This document shows, one piece after another, positions 5,640 through 57,790 of a DNA stretch of 64,000 bases (positions within the stretch are counted from its first letter, which is position 1; each line of letters starts with the position of its first letter). The stretch comes from Sclerodactyla briareus (taxonomy: Eukaryota; Echinodermata; Holothuroidea; Dendrochirotida; Sclerodactylidae): contig JAODTK010005678.1 of NCBI GenBank assembly GCA_026419785.1, positions 310,001 to 374,000 on the forward strand, given 5' to 3'. The notes beneath the pieces were generated by a model that was not told where the DNA came from, ran no database searches, and saw nothing but the letters and a program-made list of their open reading frames with translations. The position numbers and the translations under genes were made by a program.

Positions 5640-6075
5640 TATTGTGATCACAGATCTGATTGGCAAATCCTTATCACGTAAGGCCGACGTTATTTTGCAA
5701 ATAAAACAGAAGCTGGTCAGAGTAACAATACAATCGAATACTTGCTCAATTCGCTGCGTCTTGAGTACACGCAGTAAAGTACATTTTAAACGCAAATGTA
5801 AGGTGCGTGGCCTTCGGAAGTTTATGTTTAAACGCGCAGATCCGGCTTCAGTATACGCACGCTTCAGAGGGCATACTGCCTCAACGGAAACAAAACGGGT
5901 GTTGAAAAGACGTGCGTTCAGTGATTGTACACACACCAGAAACACTCCGGTTCAGAACGCGGGTTTGTTTTGCGGTCTCCGTTGGAAGTATGCCACAGCA
6001 CCGCACTGCAGCTCTTTTTTATGGTACGCAATGCAATTTACTTCCAATAGAACTAACGCAATAGTTCTCTAGCTT
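5640..6075. other. CpG-rich segment with overlapping open frames
   Basis: This segment keeps noticeably more CG dinucleotides than its surroundings and carries open frames of 142 codons (plus, 5644-6072) and 108 codons (minus, 5945-5619). Neither shows a domain I recognise. It lies immediately outside the left arm of the composite element. It could be a small non-autonomous transposon or an undermethylated segment; the sequence alone does not decide. Confidence 0.3.
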
Positions 6076-6159
6076 GCCGATTAGTGTTTAGAGATACTAT
6101 AAGATATGGTCTTGAGTGATAAAGATATCTCTTAATCGTTTGGGTTAATTCTTAATTTG

Positions 6160-6730
6160 CAGCTGGGTTTGCCGAATAGGAACAAACTATAGCAGGTCGA
6201 CTTTTAATGGTCATAAACAGTTTCGACTCTGAATTCAACCTAATAACGATGGCTCGTGAGGTGGTAACCCATTGAACACAAAGTAGAAAATGATCGTGAC
6301 ACTCCCAGATATCACAAAATAAGCCAATGACAGATATTATTGTGGTGGGTGGGTGCGCCAGACGCAAACAATAATACCCACCCCCCTTCAGATAACTAGG
6401 TTAGCTCGTAAGGTAACCAGGTGGGAGACAAAGTAGGAAAATGTTGTGACACTCCAGCTATCACAAATACCCTAATGGACAGACATTATTATGTGGGGGT
6501 TGGGTTGCGCCAAGACGCAATACAATATCCCCACACCCTTCAGCGAACCTAGGTTAGCTCGTAAGGGTAACCGTTGGTGGGACAAAGTTAAAAATGTTCG
6601 TGACACTCCCAGCTATACACAAAAGAACAATGACAGACAGTGAAGTGGTGTGGGTTGTGCCAGACGCCATACAATTCCCACCCCTACAGCTATTCTAGGG
6701 GTTAGTTGTAAGGTTAACTAGTTTGAACAG
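6160..6730 (+). repeat. Left-arm array of ~150-bp tandem units
   Basis: The motif 'ctcgtaaggtaacc' and variants recur near 6250, 6409, 6562 and 6708, giving about three units of roughly 150 bp. Each unit also contains 'cgtgacactcccagctat', a 'ccaatgacagacatt' element, 'gcgccagacgc' and a CCCACCCC block in the same order. Units differ by many small indels. The same unit appears reverse-complemented at 12180-12960. Confidence 0.85.
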
Positions 6731-7420
6731 TAATAGGATAAGGGGGGTTGACGGTCATCATCTATGTCCTGCGACTTTGACGGCGAACAGGTGCTTGATC
6801 GTGTATTATGGGGGAGGCTATCCTGAGACCCTGGAATCCGACTCAGCGGATTTTGGGCCTCCTGGATCTTGGGCCCCCAAACCACTTTAAAATTCGCGGC
6901 ATGGTGGCGTGGGATTGTCGCCTGCCATGGTGTTGTCCACAACGTCTTGAACCTAAAAAGGACCTCCTAACCATAGTCGGACATTGTGTCTTTGCGTAAA
7001 TAAGTCTAAAACATAGTAGGCTTGCATTCAAGGAGTGTCCATGCGCCTGTTGATTAACAGCGCTCCCTTCGTGATATTGTTAATCAGGCAAAAAATACAC
7101 ATATAGTAAATATATGTAATATACATAGTAATAGCCGACTGAACTGCTGAACAATTTGATCACTTGTAGTTGGGTCGGGACTGTAAGTGAGTTGGACATT
7201 GGTTTGCAAAAAAAGCTCAGCGCGTTAATGCTGCAAATATTAATGTATTGTACATGACGCCGATTTTGAACAATTGACCATTTTGGTGAGGCTTTGGGGT
7301 TATTTGGCTAAAACGACTGTGGTAAGTTCAAGGCATGCTCAAATCGTTTGCCACTTGACAGTCCCTCAGTGGATTTTAACGGGCGGGTAATAACCCCTAT
7401 TTTGAACAATGTTCACCATG
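6731..7420 (+). repeat. Left-arm inner segment
   Basis: From the run 'aaggggggttgacggtcat' onward this block matches the reverse complement of 11460-11700. Shared landmarks are the 'ggaatccgactca' and 'ggatcttgggc' strings and a following stretch containing 'gtggcg' and 'gtgttg'. The remainder (7130-7420) resembles, in reverse complement, units of the ~280-bp repeats at 10830-11520 ('gaacaattgaccattttgg'). It is therefore part of the inverted arm rather than unique DNA. Confidence 0.65.
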
Positions 7421-8079
7421 TTTAGCCTTTTTTTACTTGGACTGGTATGAGGAGGGATGAAGGCGAGGAGACGGTTAAATTGGTAGCGGTTAGCGACGCT
7501 TTTAGGACGCCTGACGAAAAGTGTCTTGCGCGAAACTGTATCGACACGATTATATCGTCACAATGATATCGAGCGACAACAATGTAACCCTAGTGTCGAA
7601 AAATCGCGAGACAACATTCCTGCCAGGCCCCCACATGCGTGCCGTGATTCGCTGCCCCTCTCTGGTGGAGTTCGGCATGTTTGGAGCAGTATTGTGACGG
7701 GAGGTGAGCCTTGTGGATTGAGACTTTGGAACCAGACTATAGTTTCTGCCCTTGGTATTATTTTGGGGCTTCACAGTGGTATAGTATCGATTGCCGGGCA
7801 CAGTTGTCTCTGTTTATGGTACACTTTGAGTGTTTGTTTAGAGTGCTGTGTCACACTCATCGAGAAGAGTATCATCTTCGCTTTCTGTTCGTTTGTGTGT
7901 GAATGCCATGTGGAAATCTGGATTTAACTAGAAATCTCTGAGATTTGGCCCATTTTGTAGGCAATTATGGGGCTTCGGGAAACAGGTTGACGAGAGGTCG
8001 GGGTGACGTTTTTTTTTAGCAAGTGCCAATATTAGTTAAGGCCTCTTTAGGGTCTCGGTTTTGACAAGGGGGGTGTTAG
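7421..8079 (-). other. Interior of composite element, no domain identified
   Basis: This lies just downstream (minus strand) of the reverse-transcriptase core, where many Penelope-like elements encode a GIY-YIG endonuclease. I looked for a recognisable GIY-YIG signature and did not find one. The open frames here (for example minus 7801-7550) are unmatched. Either the endonuclease is too decayed to see, or this copy belongs to an endonuclease-lacking lineage. Confidence 0.4.
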
Positions 8080-8990
8080 TTAGTTTGAACACCAGTGGTG
8101 GTGTGATTTGCGTTGCAGTGAGTTGGTTTGCGTGCCGGGGCGTCGCACAGATTTGTCGCGGTCCTCATGTTGAGAGCAGTAGACACGTATACCACCTCTC
8201 CTTCGTGTTACGGAACAGAAGTTTTTCTGTGAAAAAATTGTGTCTCTCGAGAAGTTGCGCTTGTCTTGCCTCATTGTTGCATAGGGTGCATACTTAGGAT
8301 TCCCCTTCGATAAAGCCATGAAAGTGGTTGGCCGATGAGCTGAATTGCATCCAAGAATTGGTAGGTTTCCGTGGCTTGGTATAGATTCTTGTATCTGGAA
8401 AGCCGTTTTCACGGGAATGTCTACTTGAAAATTGTTAGACGAGGTATGTGACCCTTCAATATCCGGAAATTCTTGCCGAGAATAAGAGTGGGTGTAGTAC
8501 GTTAATACGTTCCCACCCTGGAGTTCACTTCATCGTTGGTTCCACTGTACAGAAGTATGTATCATCTCTGTACCTTAGCAATTGTAGATGTTTGTTCTGA
8601 TGAAGGATTGAGGTCTCTATTTGTGCATAACAATGTCGCAGATCTCGGGGACGCTTGACGGCCCATTGCGCAACCATTTTTGTTTTTGTCATAAAATTGA
8701 CCGTTGAATTCAAGCGTTGCGTGAAAGGATGAGATCAATGAGTTTGCGTATTGATATGGACGATATTTTCGGGTATATATCGTAATAGTCATCAGGTGCG
8801 TTAATCGTATGCAGCCTGGCATGTTGTGAGGGAGCCTCATCCTGTGGGTGTTGGTGTACATTGATATGACATCCGAAAAGTAGCGTATAATATAATGGTA
8901 ATTTAACCCCCTGTAGTGTAAGGATGTGATTTGTGTCTTCACATAAGTTTCTTGCCTTATTACTATTGGAAGGAGGAAATCATCCACAAA
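8080..8990 (-). pseudogene. Penelope-like reverse transcriptase core, frameshifted
   Basis: On the minus strand several RT motifs appear in the correct order but in different frames. SDVISMYTN (about 8876-8847) matches the family's D-V-x-S-L-Y-T-N motif. FNGQFYDKNKNGCAMG (8708-8661) matches the FNG-x-FY-x-Q-x-x-G-x-x-MG motif that precedes SP. LLRYRDDTYF (about 8578-8552) carries the catalytic DD pair. NSAHRPTTF (around 8340) resembles the conserved S-x-HP downstream of the palm. Frameshifts separate the second and third motifs. The function would have been RNA-dependent DNA synthesis for retrotransposition. The copy is not translatable as it stands. The family assignment rests on the motif set; a LINE assignment fits less well because of FNGQFY...GCAMG. 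Confidence 0.8.
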
Positions 8991-9639
8991 GGCTGAGATT
9001 GCTATGTTGGGGACCCGTTACCGCTGATGAAGAGTCTGCCTGCAAATTTGAGTTTCTGGAGGTGCTTGGTGCACTTAGGCAAGACGTATATCACAGGCGG
9101 TGCGAGTCTTATGGTTGTGGGGAGTTAGGTAGTTGAATGTCTCTTCGTCTCTTTCTTTGTGGGAGAGCATGTTGAATGGGCGTTTTTTTTGAAACACCAC
9201 TTCGGTGGTGGCTTTGGTTTGTCGCTCGTTAACCGTTCGTGATGACAGCCTTTCAGCTGACGTTCGATCTCGTTTATTCAATCTGAGCGGGGATTTTTGC
9301 GTAGTGTATGCCTCTTCCTTTGTCGAAGAACTTCACCACAGTGGAGTGATCGTTCCTTATGTATTTAGAGCGATGCGTTTTGCTTTTTGGTATTGTGCGG
9401 CCTTCTGATAGGAAGGCTAGCCATTCAGTCTGGGTTGCCTCCTGGTAGTCTCCAAGTTTGGTTAAGTGTCACTTGAGGCGACCAGGGGGAAGTGGCAAGC
9501 GGAATCTTTGTGTTCGCGGCTTTTTATGTCGCATGACAAAACGAGGCGCATTGTTCTGTGAGTTCCTTCTATGGAGAGGAGAACATGCGTACGCTGCGGT
9601 TTATCTGGGGTCATGATGAACTTTAACCCCTTACCTGGG

Positions 9640-10505
9640 GCGATACCTCTATATGTTATAGAGGGCGGTTTATGATAGGTTTCTAGCGTCCGCTTGAGTT
9701 TATTTTCCTCATTTTGCAGGTTTTGGCTGTGGCTTCGTGTAGCCCGCGCTCCCTGAGAGGGTGATAACGATTACGGTGATATTAATATAATTTTACCCGC
9801 TCTGTTTAATTTCCGCCTTGTTTTAGACGGGATCGTGGTATCTTTACTCATGACAGTTAAAAGAAATGGACACGGACACAGGTTGTTTGAGAGAGATTGG
9901 GCTTGATTTTTGAAAAACCTTATTGTGCGTGTGGTGGCCACTAAAAAGAGCCGTTTGATCACAAAAAAGGTCTGGCGCCTATCTGCATTTGGATTCGTAA
10001 GGATTATGCCTACTGCTCGACTCCTTTGTGAGGTCTGTCGCTTTCCCAGTCGGTCTTATCTTTGAGGTAGCAGAAGCTTCTGTACAGACGGCTGGATTCG
10101 ACGTTAATCCCGTAGGACGCGATATCCTGTTGAGCCTGTTGTATTTTCCTGGAAGTAGGGATTGGTACCCGCTTCGCCTGATGGGAGAGCTCTTCCACCA
10201 GGATCTGGAAGGCGACGTTCTGCCCGACGGAGGAGTAGAAGAGTGTAGAGAGTGACGAGGTCCCAAGACTCTTGTCCCTCGTCAGTACAACATGGTGCAC
10301 CTGGGAGTGTTGGATAACTCTTGTTTACCCGGAGGTAGTTAGGGGCGTATCCCTCCGAGATCTGACGCGTCGAGTTTATCAAGCTCATTGTAAGAAAAAT
10401 ACTCTTTCTGCAAGGGCGTGTTAGGCGGCGGCGTGGCTCCGGATTTTCTCGTACGAGGCGTTGGATACGGTCTGGGAATTTCTTTGGTGATGTCTCAAGC
10501 AGCAC
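9640..10505 (-). pseudogene. Probable N-terminal part of the same Penelope-like polyprotein
   Basis: Overlapping minus-strand frames (10505-10104, 10300-10010, 9962-9771) stay open for about 60-130 codons each. One reads VPIPTSRKIQQAQQDIASYG (around 10175-10115), which resembles the segment just before the RT domain of Penelope-like proteins, where a conserved 'F-x-P-x-P' is followed by a helical region. The order and strand match the RT core at 8.99-8.08 kb. The distance between the two (about 1.4 kb) is somewhat larger than expected, so an internal insertion or extra domain is possible. The assignment is tentative. Confidence 0.45.
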
Positions 10506-10509
10506 GCTT

Positions 10510-10829
10510 TAAACGTCACATAATGCTCCCAGCATGCTCCATTCGGTAGGGAGGGGCAGCAGTGGGACACCGTACGCACTCGTGGCTTGCTGGCATATAC
10601 CGTCTCGCGATAGATCGATATTGTTGAGTTGCCGATATATTGTGAAGATATTACGTATCGTATAAAATCGCATTTGGACGGTATTTCGCCGCAATGTCAG
10701 GAAGGTCACCGTCGTTTACTAGCTGCGTCATCCTCCTCATGCCAGTACCCAGCCACACAAAGGCTAAACACGTGACCAACCTGTTCAAATCGATAGTTAT
10801 GAACCTGTAACGAATTAACTAATTGCAGG
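10510..10829. other. Interior of composite element, nothing recognised
   Basis: Short interval between the presumed start of the retroelement frame and the ~280-bp repeats of the right arm. I see no motif. Base composition changes near here: the plus strand is G/T-leaning on the left and A/C-leaning on the right. Confidence 0.35.
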
Positions 10830-11520
10830 AACTATGAGCATTCATGACCATACCAAAGTCTTTAACCCAGCGTTTCAGTTTTAGCCTGACTATGCATCCA
10901 AGGTGCGTCAAATGTTCAGTCGGCAAATATACGCCATATTCGTCCGATGAACGATACCACTCACCTACTAAAACCTGTACCTACAGTCCTGCACTCAATC
11001 AGCGTGATAGTTCCTGTGCTAATAAAAGCTTACAAATTGATCCAGTTGTTCAATAGCTATATATATTTTAGCTGATGAAACAATATCACGGAGGATATTG
11101 CTTTGACAAAGCGCCATGGCGTTGTCTTGAACTCACCAAAGTCGGTTCTACCATCGTCAAAAGTTTCAACCTAGAATGTGGTTCCGAGGTGGTCAAATTG
11201 TCAGTCGGCATTTATAAACATTTTTTGCCAGACTAACATACCACTCACGAACTTTTAAACACTCCTGCTCAACTTGACTTACTTGACCCGGGCTCATAGA
11301 GCTCACAAAGTGATCAAATAGTTCAATGGGTTATGCATTAATTTAGACATGAGTGACAATTCACAGACGGGTTCCAGGGGCTAATTGACAGGCAGGTGAG
11401 CACTCATGAACACAACACTGTGTAGGACTACGAAAGTCATCTTTCCAACTTAGTCAAGCCAATTCCGGATTGTTCAATTTGTTTTGACGACACCAACACA
11501 ATTGCAACTCAAAACAGCAA
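10830..11520 (+). repeat. About 280-bp tandem units inside the right arm
   Basis: Three diverged units begin near 10835, 11110 and 11395. Each contains a 'caaagtc'-like start, then 'gtcaaatgttcagtcggc'-like text, then 'ataccactcac', with 'caaattgatccagttgttcaat' or a relative at the end. Parts resemble the reverse complement of 7130-7420. The units are strongly diverged, so the boundaries are approximate. Confidence 0.55.
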
Positions 11521-11544
11521 CTGCGCCACTAAGCCACGAAATAT

Positions 11545-11700
11545 GAAAGTGTCTTTTGCCCAGATCCAGGCCCAAAATCCCTTGAGTCGGATTCCAGGCT
11601 CTCAGGTAGCTTCCCATAACAATCAAGTCACTGGTCGCCGGACAAAGCGCAACACTGGATGGTGACCGTCAACCCCCCTTACTACAAGGATTTCCACTTT
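11545..11700 (-). repeat. Right-arm inner segment, inverted copy of 6731-6990
   Basis: Read on the minus strand this block reproduces the left-arm segment: 'aaggggggttgacggtca', then a diverged stretch, then 'gagcctggaatccgactca' and 'ggatctgggc'. The match is clear over about 150 bp with scattered indels, which makes the two arms a true inverted pair. Confidence 0.8.
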
Positions 11701-12179
11701 CGAACATGGAATTGCTTTCACGCGTAGCAAATATGTGTGGGCGTGGTGGGTGGCCACTCTGACCACTTGAAACGATCTGAATGTGGTTATTCACGATTAC
11801 CATGACAAAAGTGAACACTTTATACCTATTTAACTGGTTAAAGCTTCAAGGCTGGCTGCCATCCTTCATATATGGCCACCACACTATTCTGATTATTTCC
11901 ACAGCTGCCTGATTTGAAAATCTCTTATCAGATTGTTGTGAAACAATTCTACTGCTTTTGCGGTTTGTCAGGTGGCAAAACTGGTGGATCATGAGAGGAA
12001 CCTAGGTCCGTTCTGTCAATCCAACACTTTAAATGTTTTAGTAGTATAATAACAGTACTATGACCGGATATGTATAATGTAATGTGCCTTTTAAACCATA
12101 AAAATTATTTCCGTCCTGTTTGAGGGTTTTTCTTTCTAACATGCATGGGATCTCAGCTAGTGGCATCGAATAAAAATAA
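11701..12179. other. Extra sequence in right arm only
   Basis: In the left arm the inner block abuts the tandem array almost directly. In the right arm about 480 bp lie between them. I see no motif in it. It may be a later insertion in the right arm or a deletion from the left. Confidence 0.45.
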
Positions 12180-12960
12180 AAAATACTGTGAAAAAATACG
12201 AGATGCGCTGGTTACCTTACGAGGCTTGCACTATCGGTTAGCTCTATGGTGAGGGATATGGAGTTCGGCACATCTACCCACCACTTTTAAAATGTCCTGT
12301 CATTGATCATTGTGATGCTGGAGTGTCACGAACATGTTCAACTTTGTTTTAGCTGGTTACCTTACGAGCAACCTAGTGTAGCTGTAGGTGTGGGGGGTAT
12401 GTATGGGTTCTGGGCACCCAACCCACCACTTAAAAAATTTGGGGTGTCTGGTCATTTGTGACAGTGGGAGTTGTAACGAACATTTCTTACTTGTTCAAAT
12501 GGTTACCTTATGAGCTAACCTAGGTAGCGGTAGGGGTGGGGGTATGGTATGGCGCCTGGCACCACCCAAACCCACCACTTTAAATGTCTGTCATTGAGTC
12601 ATTTGATAGCTGGGAGACGTTCACGAACATTTCAACTTTGTTCCTCCACACTGGTTACTTACGAGCTAACTTAGGGTAGCTGTAGGGGTCGGGTATTGTA
12701 TGGCGTTTTCTGGCGCACCCACCCACCACCTTAAAATGTCTGTCATTCGGTTCATGTGGGAAGCTGGGAGTGAATGAAACATTTCTACTTTTTTTTCAAC
12801 TGGTTACCTCATGAGCATAAGGATAGCTCATTTTTGGGTCCTAGTTATTGGCGTCTGGTGGGCGGACCCACCCCACAACCTAAAAGTCTGGTCATTGGTT
12901 ATGGGTTTTATGGGGTGTCAGGGGTTGAACAATTGAGTTACCTTCTCCAGCAGGCTTGAC
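12180..12960 (-). repeat. Right-arm array of ~150-bp tandem units, inverted
   Basis: 'ggttaccttacgagc' or variants occur near 12210, 12356, 12500, 12653 and 12801, spaced 144-153 bp. Intervening text includes 'aatgtctgtcatt' and 'cacgaacatttcaac', the reverse complement of the left-arm unit. There are about four to five units against about three on the left. The last unit decays by 12960. Confidence 0.85.
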
Positions 12961-13214
12961 CCCCCTGGGCTCCCCGGTCTATAAACCTACAGGTTTCATT
13001 TGTGTCCAGGTCAGGTTGGAAATTTTGGAAGGAGCTAGTGCATGGAAGGTTGAAAAAATATTATTTCGTGTTCACGGTTTAACCTCTATTGACAGATGAC
13101 CAGCCAAAAATGGCATTGCAGCAGGACAGACTGGCTGTCAATGGACTAAGTCCACAGCCCTCAGACTCAAACTATTGAAATATAAACGGATTTAGACGGG
13201 CAGTTCAGACTTAC

Positions 13215-31495: not shown

Positions 31496-32440
31496 TTAGA
31501 AGACTGCAGGGTCCTCCTCTGCTGAAGTCTGGGTGTCGTCTCCTTTGTTCTCCACATCCAAATAGGATGGACGTGTATGGCTCAGGGAGCCCGATAGCGA
31601 CTTCCTTCCCATTATGGTGTCTTCCGAGTCGGAATCAGACAGGGCTCCAAACGAGTGTCCCTCTGAGACATCCATAGCACCCGAGATGCCGCACTCCCTG
31701 AAGGACTGGCATATCACCTGGGGGGTTACTGCGTGCCATGACTCCTCCACCCATTCGAGTAAATCCTCCGTCGGTGGCCCATCTCCTACTCCAGAGGGAG
31801 GTCTCCTCAATCGGTCCCTCAACAGCCATAGCTCATAAGTATTGTATGCGGGCTTTGAACGGACGGTTTCCAGCTCACATCGGCTGGCTGCAAGGCGGGA
31901 CGTGCAGCCTCGTGGGTAGTATCAACGCCAATGTCAAGTGATGTACGTTTCATCCCTCTTCTTGACGTCGTCGGTCGTGTGGCCTTGGATGAAACAGGAG
32001 CAGAACGTCGTGCCCGACTGTGCTGACCCCAGATGACCTAGCCAATGGTTGACAGAGTCCTCGTCCGCCCATTATTCCCTTCCAGATCCGCAGTAGTAGT
32101 AGACATGTTAACCACCACCAGGGATTTCAGCTATTTCTACAGGCCTGACCCCGGGCAGCAGTACCATGGGTGCCAACTTGGTGCAGTCTGCATAGGCTGC
32201 CAAGGCAACTAAGATCTCCGTCTTTTCACACCCTGTCAACGATACTGTTATTTCACGATCCACGGAATGGCCAGATTGCAAAAGGTTACTCTTCCCTGCT
32301 TATCAACCAAATTGGTGTTTCAACCATATTCCCTATCATACTCAGTTTCTCCACTACGGGTTTTGTGCGGGCGCGTCGCCCCGGACAAAAATTGAAAATG
32401 GTCACGAGCGCCCGGACCATTAAAGCTAGCGCTCGACAAA
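31496..32440 (-). pseudogene. pogo-like transposase, DDE catalytic half
   Basis: Reading the minus strand with frameshifts gives KLSMIGNMVETPIW (near 32350-32310), TGCEKTEILVALAAYADCT (about 32250-32190), APMVLLPGVRP, ADEDSVNHWL, a VLLLFHPRPH segment (about 32010-31980), LQPADVSW (31893-31870) and finally EWVEESWHAVTPQVICQSF with RECGIS (about 31740-31670). These follow the order of the DDE_1 domain of pogo/Tigger/Jerky proteins. The first Asp (normally GNM-D-ETP) is Val here (codon 32324-32322) and the second (normally W/F-D-S-F-R) is His. The third (PAD-V-S-W) is kept. The transposase is therefore catalytically dead as read. The C-terminal tail is acidic (DSDSEDT). Confidence 0.85.
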
Positions 32441-46784: not shown

Positions 46785-47310
46785 CATGCGGGTAAACGCC
46801 GCGTGTACATATATCCCCCGCCAGAAATGGCCTTTGTAGACTTTGTTTGAAGAAAGCATTCAGACCAACTGTAGTTCACATTTTCCCAGTTTCGTTCAAC
46901 TCCGACAGTTAAAAAACTCTTAAACCAAACACAAATTTGACCTCTGGTGTCCCTCAAAAATTCACCATCAGTTTTTCAGGACCAACTTGTCCACTCACCA
47001 GTTTCATGTAAAGCGGCCTAACCCTGTATTTTCACAAAAAACAACAAATTTGACCTCCAGTGACCTTGACATCACGTCATTTTGTCGGGACCAACTTGGT
47101 CTCCCACTCAACCATTTTCAGTAAATCAACTAACTCTGTATTTTATGGCAAGAAAAAACCGACAATTTGACCTCAGTGACCTTGAAGTTCCCGTTCATGT
47201 TTTTCGGGACCATTTTTTGTCCCCACCCCCAGTTTCATGTAAATCGGACCACCTCTGTTTTTTTCGTAATCCACAACCTGCAAAACTGCGTGATACTGCC
47301 CACTTTCGAA
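46785..47310 (+). repeat. About 105-bp tandem repeat array
   Basis: Units carry, in order, 'aatttgacctc', 'agtgaccttga', 'tttttcgggaccaactt', 'gtccccac', 'agtttcatgtaaatcgg' and 'ctctgtatttt'. They recur near 46930, 47040 and 47155, with a degraded copy before. Spacing is roughly 105-115 bp. The block at 38600-38960 is a relative in the same orientation. Confidence 0.75.
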
Positions 47311-47389
47311 CTCATCCATAATTCGGCTAGGACGTGACTGTATACCAATTTCTCGATGCGATCGGGATAACGCGTTAAATAGTTATTGC

Positions 47390-47567
47390 GCTAATGCTAA
47401 AGTTTCCGACGACGGATGACAGCTGGTACACCCCCAAAAACCATAATATCCCGAACCCTTTTTTGCAGGGATTATTTATCCCGCAACACGCACGGATAAT
47501 TTTCGGGGATATTATGTTTTTGACCGTGTGCCCGCCGTCCTCCGCCGCCGGAAACTTCAGCGTTAGC
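47390..47567. repeat. Inverted repeat able to form a long hairpin
   Basis: The left arm (47390-47454) and right arm (47504-47567) are about 65 bp each and match in reverse complement with modest divergence, for example 'gctaatgctaaagtttccg' against 'cggaaacttcagcgttagc' and 'cataatatccc' against 'gggatattatg'. A spacer of about 49 bp lies between. The near mirror image of the open frames on the two strands follows from this symmetry and does not indicate genes. Confidence 0.85.
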
Positions 47568-48330
47568 CTCTCATTCTTTAACACTTATCCGATTGACCCA
47601 AACCTTGGTACAACATGTCCGTATGAGTAAACTCTCGGATAAGTCCTAAAATGGCTATATCGTATATTGCTGCCCTCTATTTTGCAGGTTTTCCGCAAAA
47701 TTTTCAAGTTCGGCGACTTACACGAAACATGGTGGTTGTGGGAGTTTTTGGAGCCGAAAACATGGGGCACAATTTTCAGTCATCCGAGTCAAGTTTCCAT
47801 TTCTTGGCCAGAGCCTAATTATCGCATAATGTATATGATATTTCAAACTTCCTTGGATTTTCATAAACTTGGCTGAATAGTGCCAACTATCATTGCCGAT
47901 GAATTTCCTATTGGCTGAGTCACTGGAGGTCATCTTGGCATGACTAATTTGCATAATCGTTTTGCCCAACTTAGCAATTATGCAAATTAATAAACTTTGC
48001 TGATTCTCACGGAAATTGGTGAGTAGGACCTTCAAACAGTCCGTATGATTTAAATTCAATTGCGTTGAAAATCACTGAAGGTCATTATGGGTGTTTAATT
48101 TACGTATTTGTTAGCATTATTAGAATATTTAATGCAATGATTGTTTCTCAACTTTTGGATTTTTGACGAAATTTGTGATAGGAACCTACTACCAGTCCTG
48201 ATACATTTTATTCAATTGCATCCAGATCACTGAGGGTACTTTGTGGGAACTATTTGCATCCTTGCATCAGTTATCCTGATCAGTCAAAATGATGAGTTTA
48301 ATACTTTTCCGCAATAACATTGGTCATGTT
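47568..48330 (+). repeat. Body of the same dispersed family, with 'atttgcataatta' units
   Basis: Downstream of the hairpin the sequence contains 'aacatggtggttgtggg', 'aatttgcataatcg', 'gcaattatgcaaatt' and 'gaaggtcattatgggt'. These motifs recur in the block at 63060-63620 in the same order. Internal units of about 120-200 bp are diverged. Confidence 0.6.
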
Positions 48331-56819: not shown

Positions 56820-57790
56820 ATGGGCCCCTGTTTAACGAAAGTTGGTCCCAAAACGATCGCATGTTTCGAAACGCGCATATCTGCGGAAAAGTCAGTTCTC
56901 AAAAAAATCAGAGGGCCGCCGTTGGTGTGTGTGGGCCACGCCCACATCTCTCCAACTGGTCCCATGTTTCTTCTTCATGGCGAACATGTACACCAAGATT
57001 CTAGTCAATCGGATGAAGCGCTAGTTTTGCGAAGAAAAGGAAACAAATTAAATAAATATCCGCGTTTGTGGTCCCATGGTGCGAAAACCTAAGTTGGTCC
57101 CAAAACGATCGCCATGTTTCCGAAACGTGCATTTCTGGCGAAAACAGTCATTGCAAAAAATACAGATGGCCGCCCTTGGAGGGGTGTGGCATGCCCACTT
57201 TCAAAATCGTCTAAGCTGTCTTATGGACTGTCCTGTACACAATTTTCAAGTCAATCTGATAGAGCGCTAGTTTTGCCAAAAAAATGGAAATAATCCGCCG
57301 TGTGTGGTCCCATGGTGCGAAAACCTAAGTTGTTCCAAACGTCGGCCATGTCCAAAATGTGCATATCTGCAAAAATCGATTCGTCCAAATACAGATGGCT
57401 GCCCTTGGAGGGGTGTGCCATGCCCCCTTTCGTAATCGTCTAGATTTTCTCCATGGGGGTCCTGTACAACCAAGTTTCAGTCAATCGAATTCAACGCGTA
57501 TTTTTTCGCAAAAATTGAAATGGCCGCTGTGTGGGTCTAATTGGGCGCGAACTAAAGTTGGTCCCCAAATGATCGCCATGTTCAAAAACTTGCAACACTG
57601 GCGAAAAGAAAAATTTTAAAAACCAAGATGGCCACTAATGGACAGGTGTGGCCACGCGCCACTTTCGAACTTGTTGAAAATTTTTACATGACCAAAAAAA
57701 AACATGGTCCAAGTTTAAGTAACTCGAACAATCGTTTGGAGAGCTAAGCCCCCCGTTTTTCCAAGAATAAAAATCATTAGTTCCGACAGT
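56820..57790 (+). repeat. 225-250-bp tandem array
   Basis: Units begin with 'aagttggtcccaaaacgatc' near 56840, 57090, 57328 and 57552. Each continues with 'cgccatgtttccgaaac', 'gcatatctg', 'cagatggccgcccttgg', 'ggtgtggcatgcccac', 'caagtcaatc' and 'agcgctagttttg'. The period shrinks from about 250 to 225 bp across the array. The plus-strand open frames here are repeats of the same peptide and not a gene. Confidence 0.85.

Follow-up and report, generated by a model that had tools for sequence, protein, structure and literature searches.

Three kinds of described system bear on the element considered here. The first is Tetris of Drosophila virilis, which has long inverted arms, an outer flanking domain, a variable number of ~220-bp tandem units and a variable middle. 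Its outer domain shares a stretch with the unit, it has no conserved open reading frames (ORFs) and its target duplications measure 8-9 bp. According to the accessible part of its description it is apparently non-autonomous, and its autonomous partner was not found (PMC4079207). The second is the Penelope family of Adineta vaga, whose members encode a GIY-YIG endonuclease, end in pseudo-long terminal repeats (pseudo-LTRs) and are flanked by target duplications of 8-10 bp or by none. They have an inverted, often head-to-head partner and can carry foreign DNA along, as far as the available portion of the report goes (PMC3846280). The third comprises Teratorn and the Pack-MULEs, the cargo of which is a herpesvirus genome or host gene fragments (PMC6431247, accessible part). 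The element to be set beside these lies in a stretch of 64,000 nucleotides from Sclerodactyla briareus (assembly GCA_026419785.1, contig JAODTK010005678.1, positions 310,001 to 374,000 of the forward strand), hereafter the window. It runs from ~6252 to ~12981 of the window and is probably a non-autonomous foldback DNA transposon that carries a head-to-head Penelope-like pair as cargo and moves as one unit.

The arms are arrays of tandem units in inverted orientation. The initial annotation had described them as such, with about three ~150-bp units on the left and four to five on the right, and had named self-comparison of the two sides as the check. Run as a gapped self-alignment, this comparison shows that the inverted identity is present: 6252-6729 matches 12816-12345 over 505 columns at 73.9% (E 3.6e-55). 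Within the left array (U; 6252-6733, plus strand) 6278-6571 aligns head to tail with 6428-6718 at a spacing of ~150 bp, and on the right 12207-12752 aligns with 12352-12900 at ~147 bp. Tandem Repeats Finder (TRF) reports periods of 153 and 146. The unit counts agree as well: the left array has three, and the right array has four in full and a fifth in part. Self-alignment extends the right array (U', minus strand) over 12207-12902. Its four full units (12235-12815) and the start of the outer partial unit occupy 12207-12859, followed by the right terminal domain T' (12860-12981, minus strand), which ends TAGACC/TAGAGC... at ~12981. The left terminal domain and outer left arm were not found in the window copy, which begins at ~6252. 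The composite first placed at 6160 to 12960 is real, with its ends moved to ~6252 and ~12981.

Inside the arrays lies another inverted pair, 6739-6909 against 11681-11524, with 78% identity by self-alignment. It had been reported to lie next to each array. This is so on the left; on the right 525 bp (11682-12206) separate it from the array. The left member is block A (6739-6920, plus strand), the 3' end of the Penelope-like element, whose outer edge is the retroelement terminus by self-alignment and by the junctions described below. The right member, A' (11510-11681, minus strand), was delimited by self-alignment and family consensus. The intervening 525 bp are block X (plus strand), the middle sequence of the foldback host, which is also found in two arm elements without this reverse transcriptase (RT). 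Profile searches detect weaker inverted homology that continues inward to the RT on both sides through blocks IL and N, so the arms are longer than had been described. Block IL (6968-7449, plus strand), a portion of the retroelement on the A side of the RT, has two inverted partners at 10738-11112 and 11103-11457 (together 10738-11457, minus strand), which are taken to belong to a truncated, head-to-head copy of the retroelement. Block N' (7529-7733, minus strand) pairs inverted with N (10482-10692, plus strand). The RT region occupies 7503-10470 on the minus strand as pieces RT3-RT2-RT1, its low end overlapping N'; between N' and N the window shows no inverted counterpart to these pieces. A head-to-head inverted partial copy is present, in that A-IL-N' faces N-IL-IL-A' around the RT. 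A hammerhead ribozyme or other RNA family was considered for the arms and rejected, none having matched; the hammerhead search of 6000-13200, at E up to 5, is limited in sensitivity by sequence noise.

A minus-strand RT with Penelope-like motifs does lie between the arms, as had been claimed. Minus-strand translations of 7400-11000 contain RT motifs scattered over three frames, and the frame in this assembly is interrupted by many small indels. The motifs GNGSPTEPISAFVD, NGCAMGSQASPE, RYRDD and DTRIYTKPTE are ones we take to be of Penelope type. Consensus pieces built from 4 to 16 copies gave longer open stretches, and a piece joined by hand from two frames matches the Pfam profile RVT_1 (E 3e-8), the matched part spanning the join. 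Pfam found no RT match in the noisy window frames of the region. Comparison of the RT piece with the Protein Data Bank (PDB) yielded five weak matches, the best at E 0.18, and comparison with viral contigs yielded no relative. No GIY-YIG domain was matched after the RT in consensus or window frames, although the consensus contains stops and the window scan missed the RT too, so that sensitivity was low.

This structure belongs to a repeat family. In the 319 Mb of genome searched, an RT stretch scored 40 matches among 81 candidates, the window being one of them. Twenty stretches were fetched, covering 23 of the other 39 matches; the remaining 16 were not viewed with flanks. Arrays occur at 16 of the 21 RT loci (window plus 20 stretches), and the canonical order is T, U, A, IL, N', RT, N, two IL, A', X, U', T'. 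Among the best 40 of 83 candidates for the terminus, found with a query taken from a composite copy, 26 of 29 contigs also hold retroelement parts by hand count. Not every copy is complete. A' or more is absent on the X side in L012, L015 and L016, L022 is without RT3 at the expected place, and several loci are cut by stretch ends or interrupted by inserts (L014, L020, L038). In L028 (259-9465) the retroelement interior is duplicated in tandem inside a single arm pair.

Do the arms and the retroelement always occur together? They do not. The initial annotation had reasoned that arms without RT and RT without arms would mean a nested insertion, and both were found. Five of the 21 RT loci (L011, L018, L021, L023, L024) have no arrays. 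Free RT copies end within a few bases of the same terminus (...GTAAGGGGGGTTGACGG) in different flanks, and this terminus is the point at which the arms begin in the composite. Conversely, a genome search with X gave 41 matches, and of 12 further X loci eight pass directly from X into A. In L038 a 3.3-kb stretch interrupts this passage, in L035 X is followed by the inner part, and in L039 (C2051) and L040 (C2849) it is followed by another sequence, W. The last two are complete elements with the order T-U-X-W-U-T, measuring about 6.8 and 6.1 kb; RT, A and IL were found in neither. Arms that are complete without the RT, together with free RT copies that end at the A edge, indicate that arms and retroelement were separate and later joined. 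The minisatellite arms are therefore those of a foldback transposon and not a Penelope feature. Of the two origins first suggested for them, tandem template use by the retroelement and a separate fold-back host, the second is the one supported.

Nevertheless, the two parts are joined in a constant way. Among 44 A edges with enough flank, 16 adjoin U, 20 adjoin X and eight adjoin something else; seven of these eight come from free copies and one from L020, where the array beside A is interrupted. Mean consensus support at the junctions is 0.89 (U) and 0.90 (X). Constant linkage with the same junctions had been named as the sign of one element, and this largely holds, although the parts are not always linked.

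The termini point the same way. The true termini (TAGAGC...) lie outside the arrays and are inverted at the two ends; the terminal box was located at 21 places in 15 loci, again inverted between sides. An alignment of the 21 ends starts sharply at TAGAGCGGGAGCCC..., and outside it the flanks are unlike. Motif GAGGTAAC is found three times in the terminus consensus (positions 35, 176 and 319), and alignment of its inner part (231-333) to the unit scores 70, whereas 100 shuffles gave no more than 28. By this recurrence and alignment, the arm looks like a minisatellite that diverges towards its tip and reaches within ~35 bp of the end. End pairs could be taken from 15 loci, of which 11 were usable. 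Identical 3-bp flanks occur in seven of the 11 (ACA, ATA, ACC, TAC, TTA, TAT, TGA), compared with two of 110 mispaired left and right flanks. L014 has TTAT on both sides, i.e., a match at 4 bp. The arm element C2051 has GGC on both sides under one placement of its left terminus, the alternative placement lying one base outward. Target duplication is judged on these other copies, the window copy having no left terminus. Long inverted repeats with internal tandem units, and fixed termini with a short target duplication, are features of the foldback type, and both are seen here.

Further evidence comes from L014, a copy with 7.66 kb between its flanks. When joined, these flanks match C2503 (85%) and C59 (81%) unbroken across the join, within assembly noise. 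Unoccupied C2503 reads ...GTGTTATCATC..., whereas occupied L014 reads GTGTTAT, element, TTATCATC, sequences that would fit duplication of TTA or TTAT. The C2503 and C59 sites may be alleles of L014 or paralogous places. An unoccupied site for this copy indicates that the whole composite was inserted as one unit. Since arms and RT are found apart and yet have common junctions and a whole-unit insertion, the composite is a nest turned single mobile unit.

The probable course of events begins with a foldback body consisting of TAGAGC... termini, arms of ~145-bp units and the middle block X. A head-to-head pair, an RT-bearing copy and a truncated inverted copy, would have arisen as it often does in Penelope elements, and the foldback element would then have taken in this pair next to X. 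Transposase from elsewhere would bind the arms, perhaps via a motif repeated in each unit, and would cut and join the DNA. The whole ~7 kb would thus now move and multiply together as a single piece of DNA, duplicating 3 bp of the target, and the RT would ride as cargo rather than drive the movement.

Several observations do not fit this reading so well. Four of the 15 end-pair loci (C1215a, C2327, C2456, L026) were dropped because one terminus of each is badly aligned, four of the 11 usable pairs show no 3-bp match (C1509, L010, L015, L014), and the 3-bp flanks of the arm element C2849 do not match. For L009, whose left flank is itself a repeat, the 40 candidates scored out of 851 included no unoccupied site matching the joined flanks. 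Arrays stand on both sides at only 12 of the 16 array-bearing loci; they are one-sided in L012, L013, L017 and L027, of which L013 is cut by a contig end. In L012, L015, L016 and L035 the junction between A' and X is absent or altered. Assignment to Penelope relies on recognised motifs and the general RVT_1 profile. No transposase domain was found in the pieces scanned by Pfam, which include most of the W interiors, and no search for a partner element was made. Finally, comparison of the U|A and A'|X consensus flanks by eye reveals no target duplication around the retroelement, so either the capture was something other than a clean insertion or it was modified afterwards. Some Penelope inserts are likewise without a target duplication (PMC3846280, in the part available).

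W was considered as a source of transposase and rejected: Pfam found none in L067:1-3500 and L068:1-4000 (six frames) or in L041:860-2460 (three frames), and translations of the first ~1 kb of W were inspected by eye. The W interior (L040 with L067 and L039 with L068, in C2849 and C2051) is ~4.2-4.8 kb long, has no recognised coding content and holds other repeats. L041, an arm element of 3.0 kb, has on its opposite strand an RT3-like stretch (L041:867-1770); it also has a weak A-like stretch and a right part in common with W. Its RT3-like stretch may be a second, older retroelement capture.

The state of the sequences matters for what follows. Compared with other copies, the window RT shows a transition/transversion ratio (ti/tv) of 0.54 and one indel event, mostly of 1 bp, per 1.34 substitutions. 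When each tested block, coding or not, is set against its own consensus, substitutions amount to 4.6-8.4%, ti/tv to 0.32-0.76 and indel events to 5.1-6.2 per 100; this count omits ten loci belonging to the free, W and L041 types. Window 6000-13000 and L009-L028 share this heavy random-error pattern. Because the ti/tv and indel pattern is error-like, decay is not accepted as the chief explanation for the broken RT and the ~75% arm identity. The ~75% identity of the window arms is mostly assembly noise, and it is an underestimate because the copies carry random-error substitutions and indels relative to their consensus. Between the left and right consensus, gaps apart, identity reaches 99.3% in the terminus, 97.1% in the unit and 96.9% in A, which means that the outer arms are either young or kept similar. 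IL and N reach only 82% and 80%, and a diverged retroelement is the probable source of the inner inverted copy. A host-gene control, HSP70, was mixed, with eight of 14 matches stop-free and six of 14 containing a stop. Given heavy random assembly error, frameshifts in these transposons say little about age.

What if the RT is more than cargo? The element might, although this is unlikely, be dual-mode, moving by cut-and-paste through its DNA-transposon ends while its RT still reverse-transcribes, with selection keeping the halves together. The RT would then seed free retroelement copies and perhaps extend the tandem arms. Armed and free RT consensus sequences differ by 87 transitions and 46 transversions. 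Signs of selection on the RT are mixed. Matched open stretches contain 16 synonymous and five non-synonymous codon changes; these stretches were picked as recognisable motifs, three of 11 of which were not found. A cruder count over the whole RT, in frames assigned by script, shows no third-position excess: 35 changes fall on first, 50 on second and 48 on third codon positions. Changes between armed and free copies may predate capture, and neither count proves that the RT functions inside the composite.

Also unlikely is a reading of the entire unit as a Penelope-like retroelement, in which its RT would copy the arms and repeated use of the template would generate the tandem units. Penelope elements often have a partial copy inverted head to head (PMC3846280), and blocks A, IL and N fit this pattern. 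The tandem retroelement duplication inside L028 also fits. However, complete elements with arms and X exist without this RT, and arm-free retroelement copies end at the A edge in different flanks, which places the arms outside the retroelement. Target duplications are mostly 3 bp here, versus 8-10 bp or none in the A. vaga inserts (PMC3846280, same portion), and the GIY-YIG endonuclease was not found, with the limited sensitivity noted above.

Plain nesting, in which one retroelement entered one foldback element and the copies are segmental duplications or haplotigs of an immobile composite, is very improbable. Some contigs do resemble haplotigs or duplicates: L018 and L021 have both outer flanks in common and may be one locus on two haplotypes. 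Inserts, moreover, interrupt several copies (L014, L020, L038). However, flanks beyond the termini differ between copies, the 3-bp matches are found in seven of 11 usable pairs, and an unoccupied site exists for the composite copy in L014. That arms and junctions were produced by assembly or sequencing artefact is scarcely credible. Random error is indeed heavy in the copies, with ti/tv at 0.54 and 1.34 substitutions for every indel event, but the structure recurs at many loci in different contigs and flanks, with consensus termini and units 97-99% alike.

The rest of the window adds little to this picture. A minus-strand ORF at 31496-31921 has an end that resembles the C-terminus of a pogo/Tigger transposase, although Pfam gave no match. 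Eight other window ORFs gave one sub-threshold Pfam match, taken as chance. Tandem and palindromic repeats lie at 46927-47590 (~47 kb), and 56839-57669 (~57 kb) contains a ~245-bp tandem repeat.

Retroelements and DNA transposons are usually classed apart, and the composite suggests that one can become stable cargo of the other. It is seen at about two dozen loci, some of which may be haplotigs. Cargo status would give a retroelement, possibly one without endonuclease, another route to spread. It also prompts one to ask whether transposase binds to the tandem units of foldback arms. In addition, annotation from the RT alone would misclassify the composite.

How does the composite compare with known systems? 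Like FB-NOF and Galileo of Drosophila, it has foldback arms of tandem units around a coding block. The coding block of FB-NOF and Galileo is transposase-like and not a reverse transcriptase. In the open-licence literature, covered mostly at the level of titles and abstracts, no description was found of an inverted-repeat DNA transposon with a Penelope-like cargo. The nearest arm anatomy found is that of Tetris, with which the composite shares its arm anatomy, an apparent lack of autonomy and an outer domain related to the unit. Unlike Tetris, it holds a retroelement RT in its middle and has duplications of mostly 3 bp (PMC4079207, available part). The nearest retroelement anatomy found is that of A. 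vaga Penelope, likewise an RT element with an inverted partner copy. Here, unlike there, the outer ends belong to a separate inverted-repeat element, to judge from the accessible account (PMC3846280). Finally, the composite resembles Teratorn and the Pack-MULEs, within what the available section of the source covers, in having DNA-transposon ends with foreign cargo, the cargo here being a retroelement (PMC6431247).

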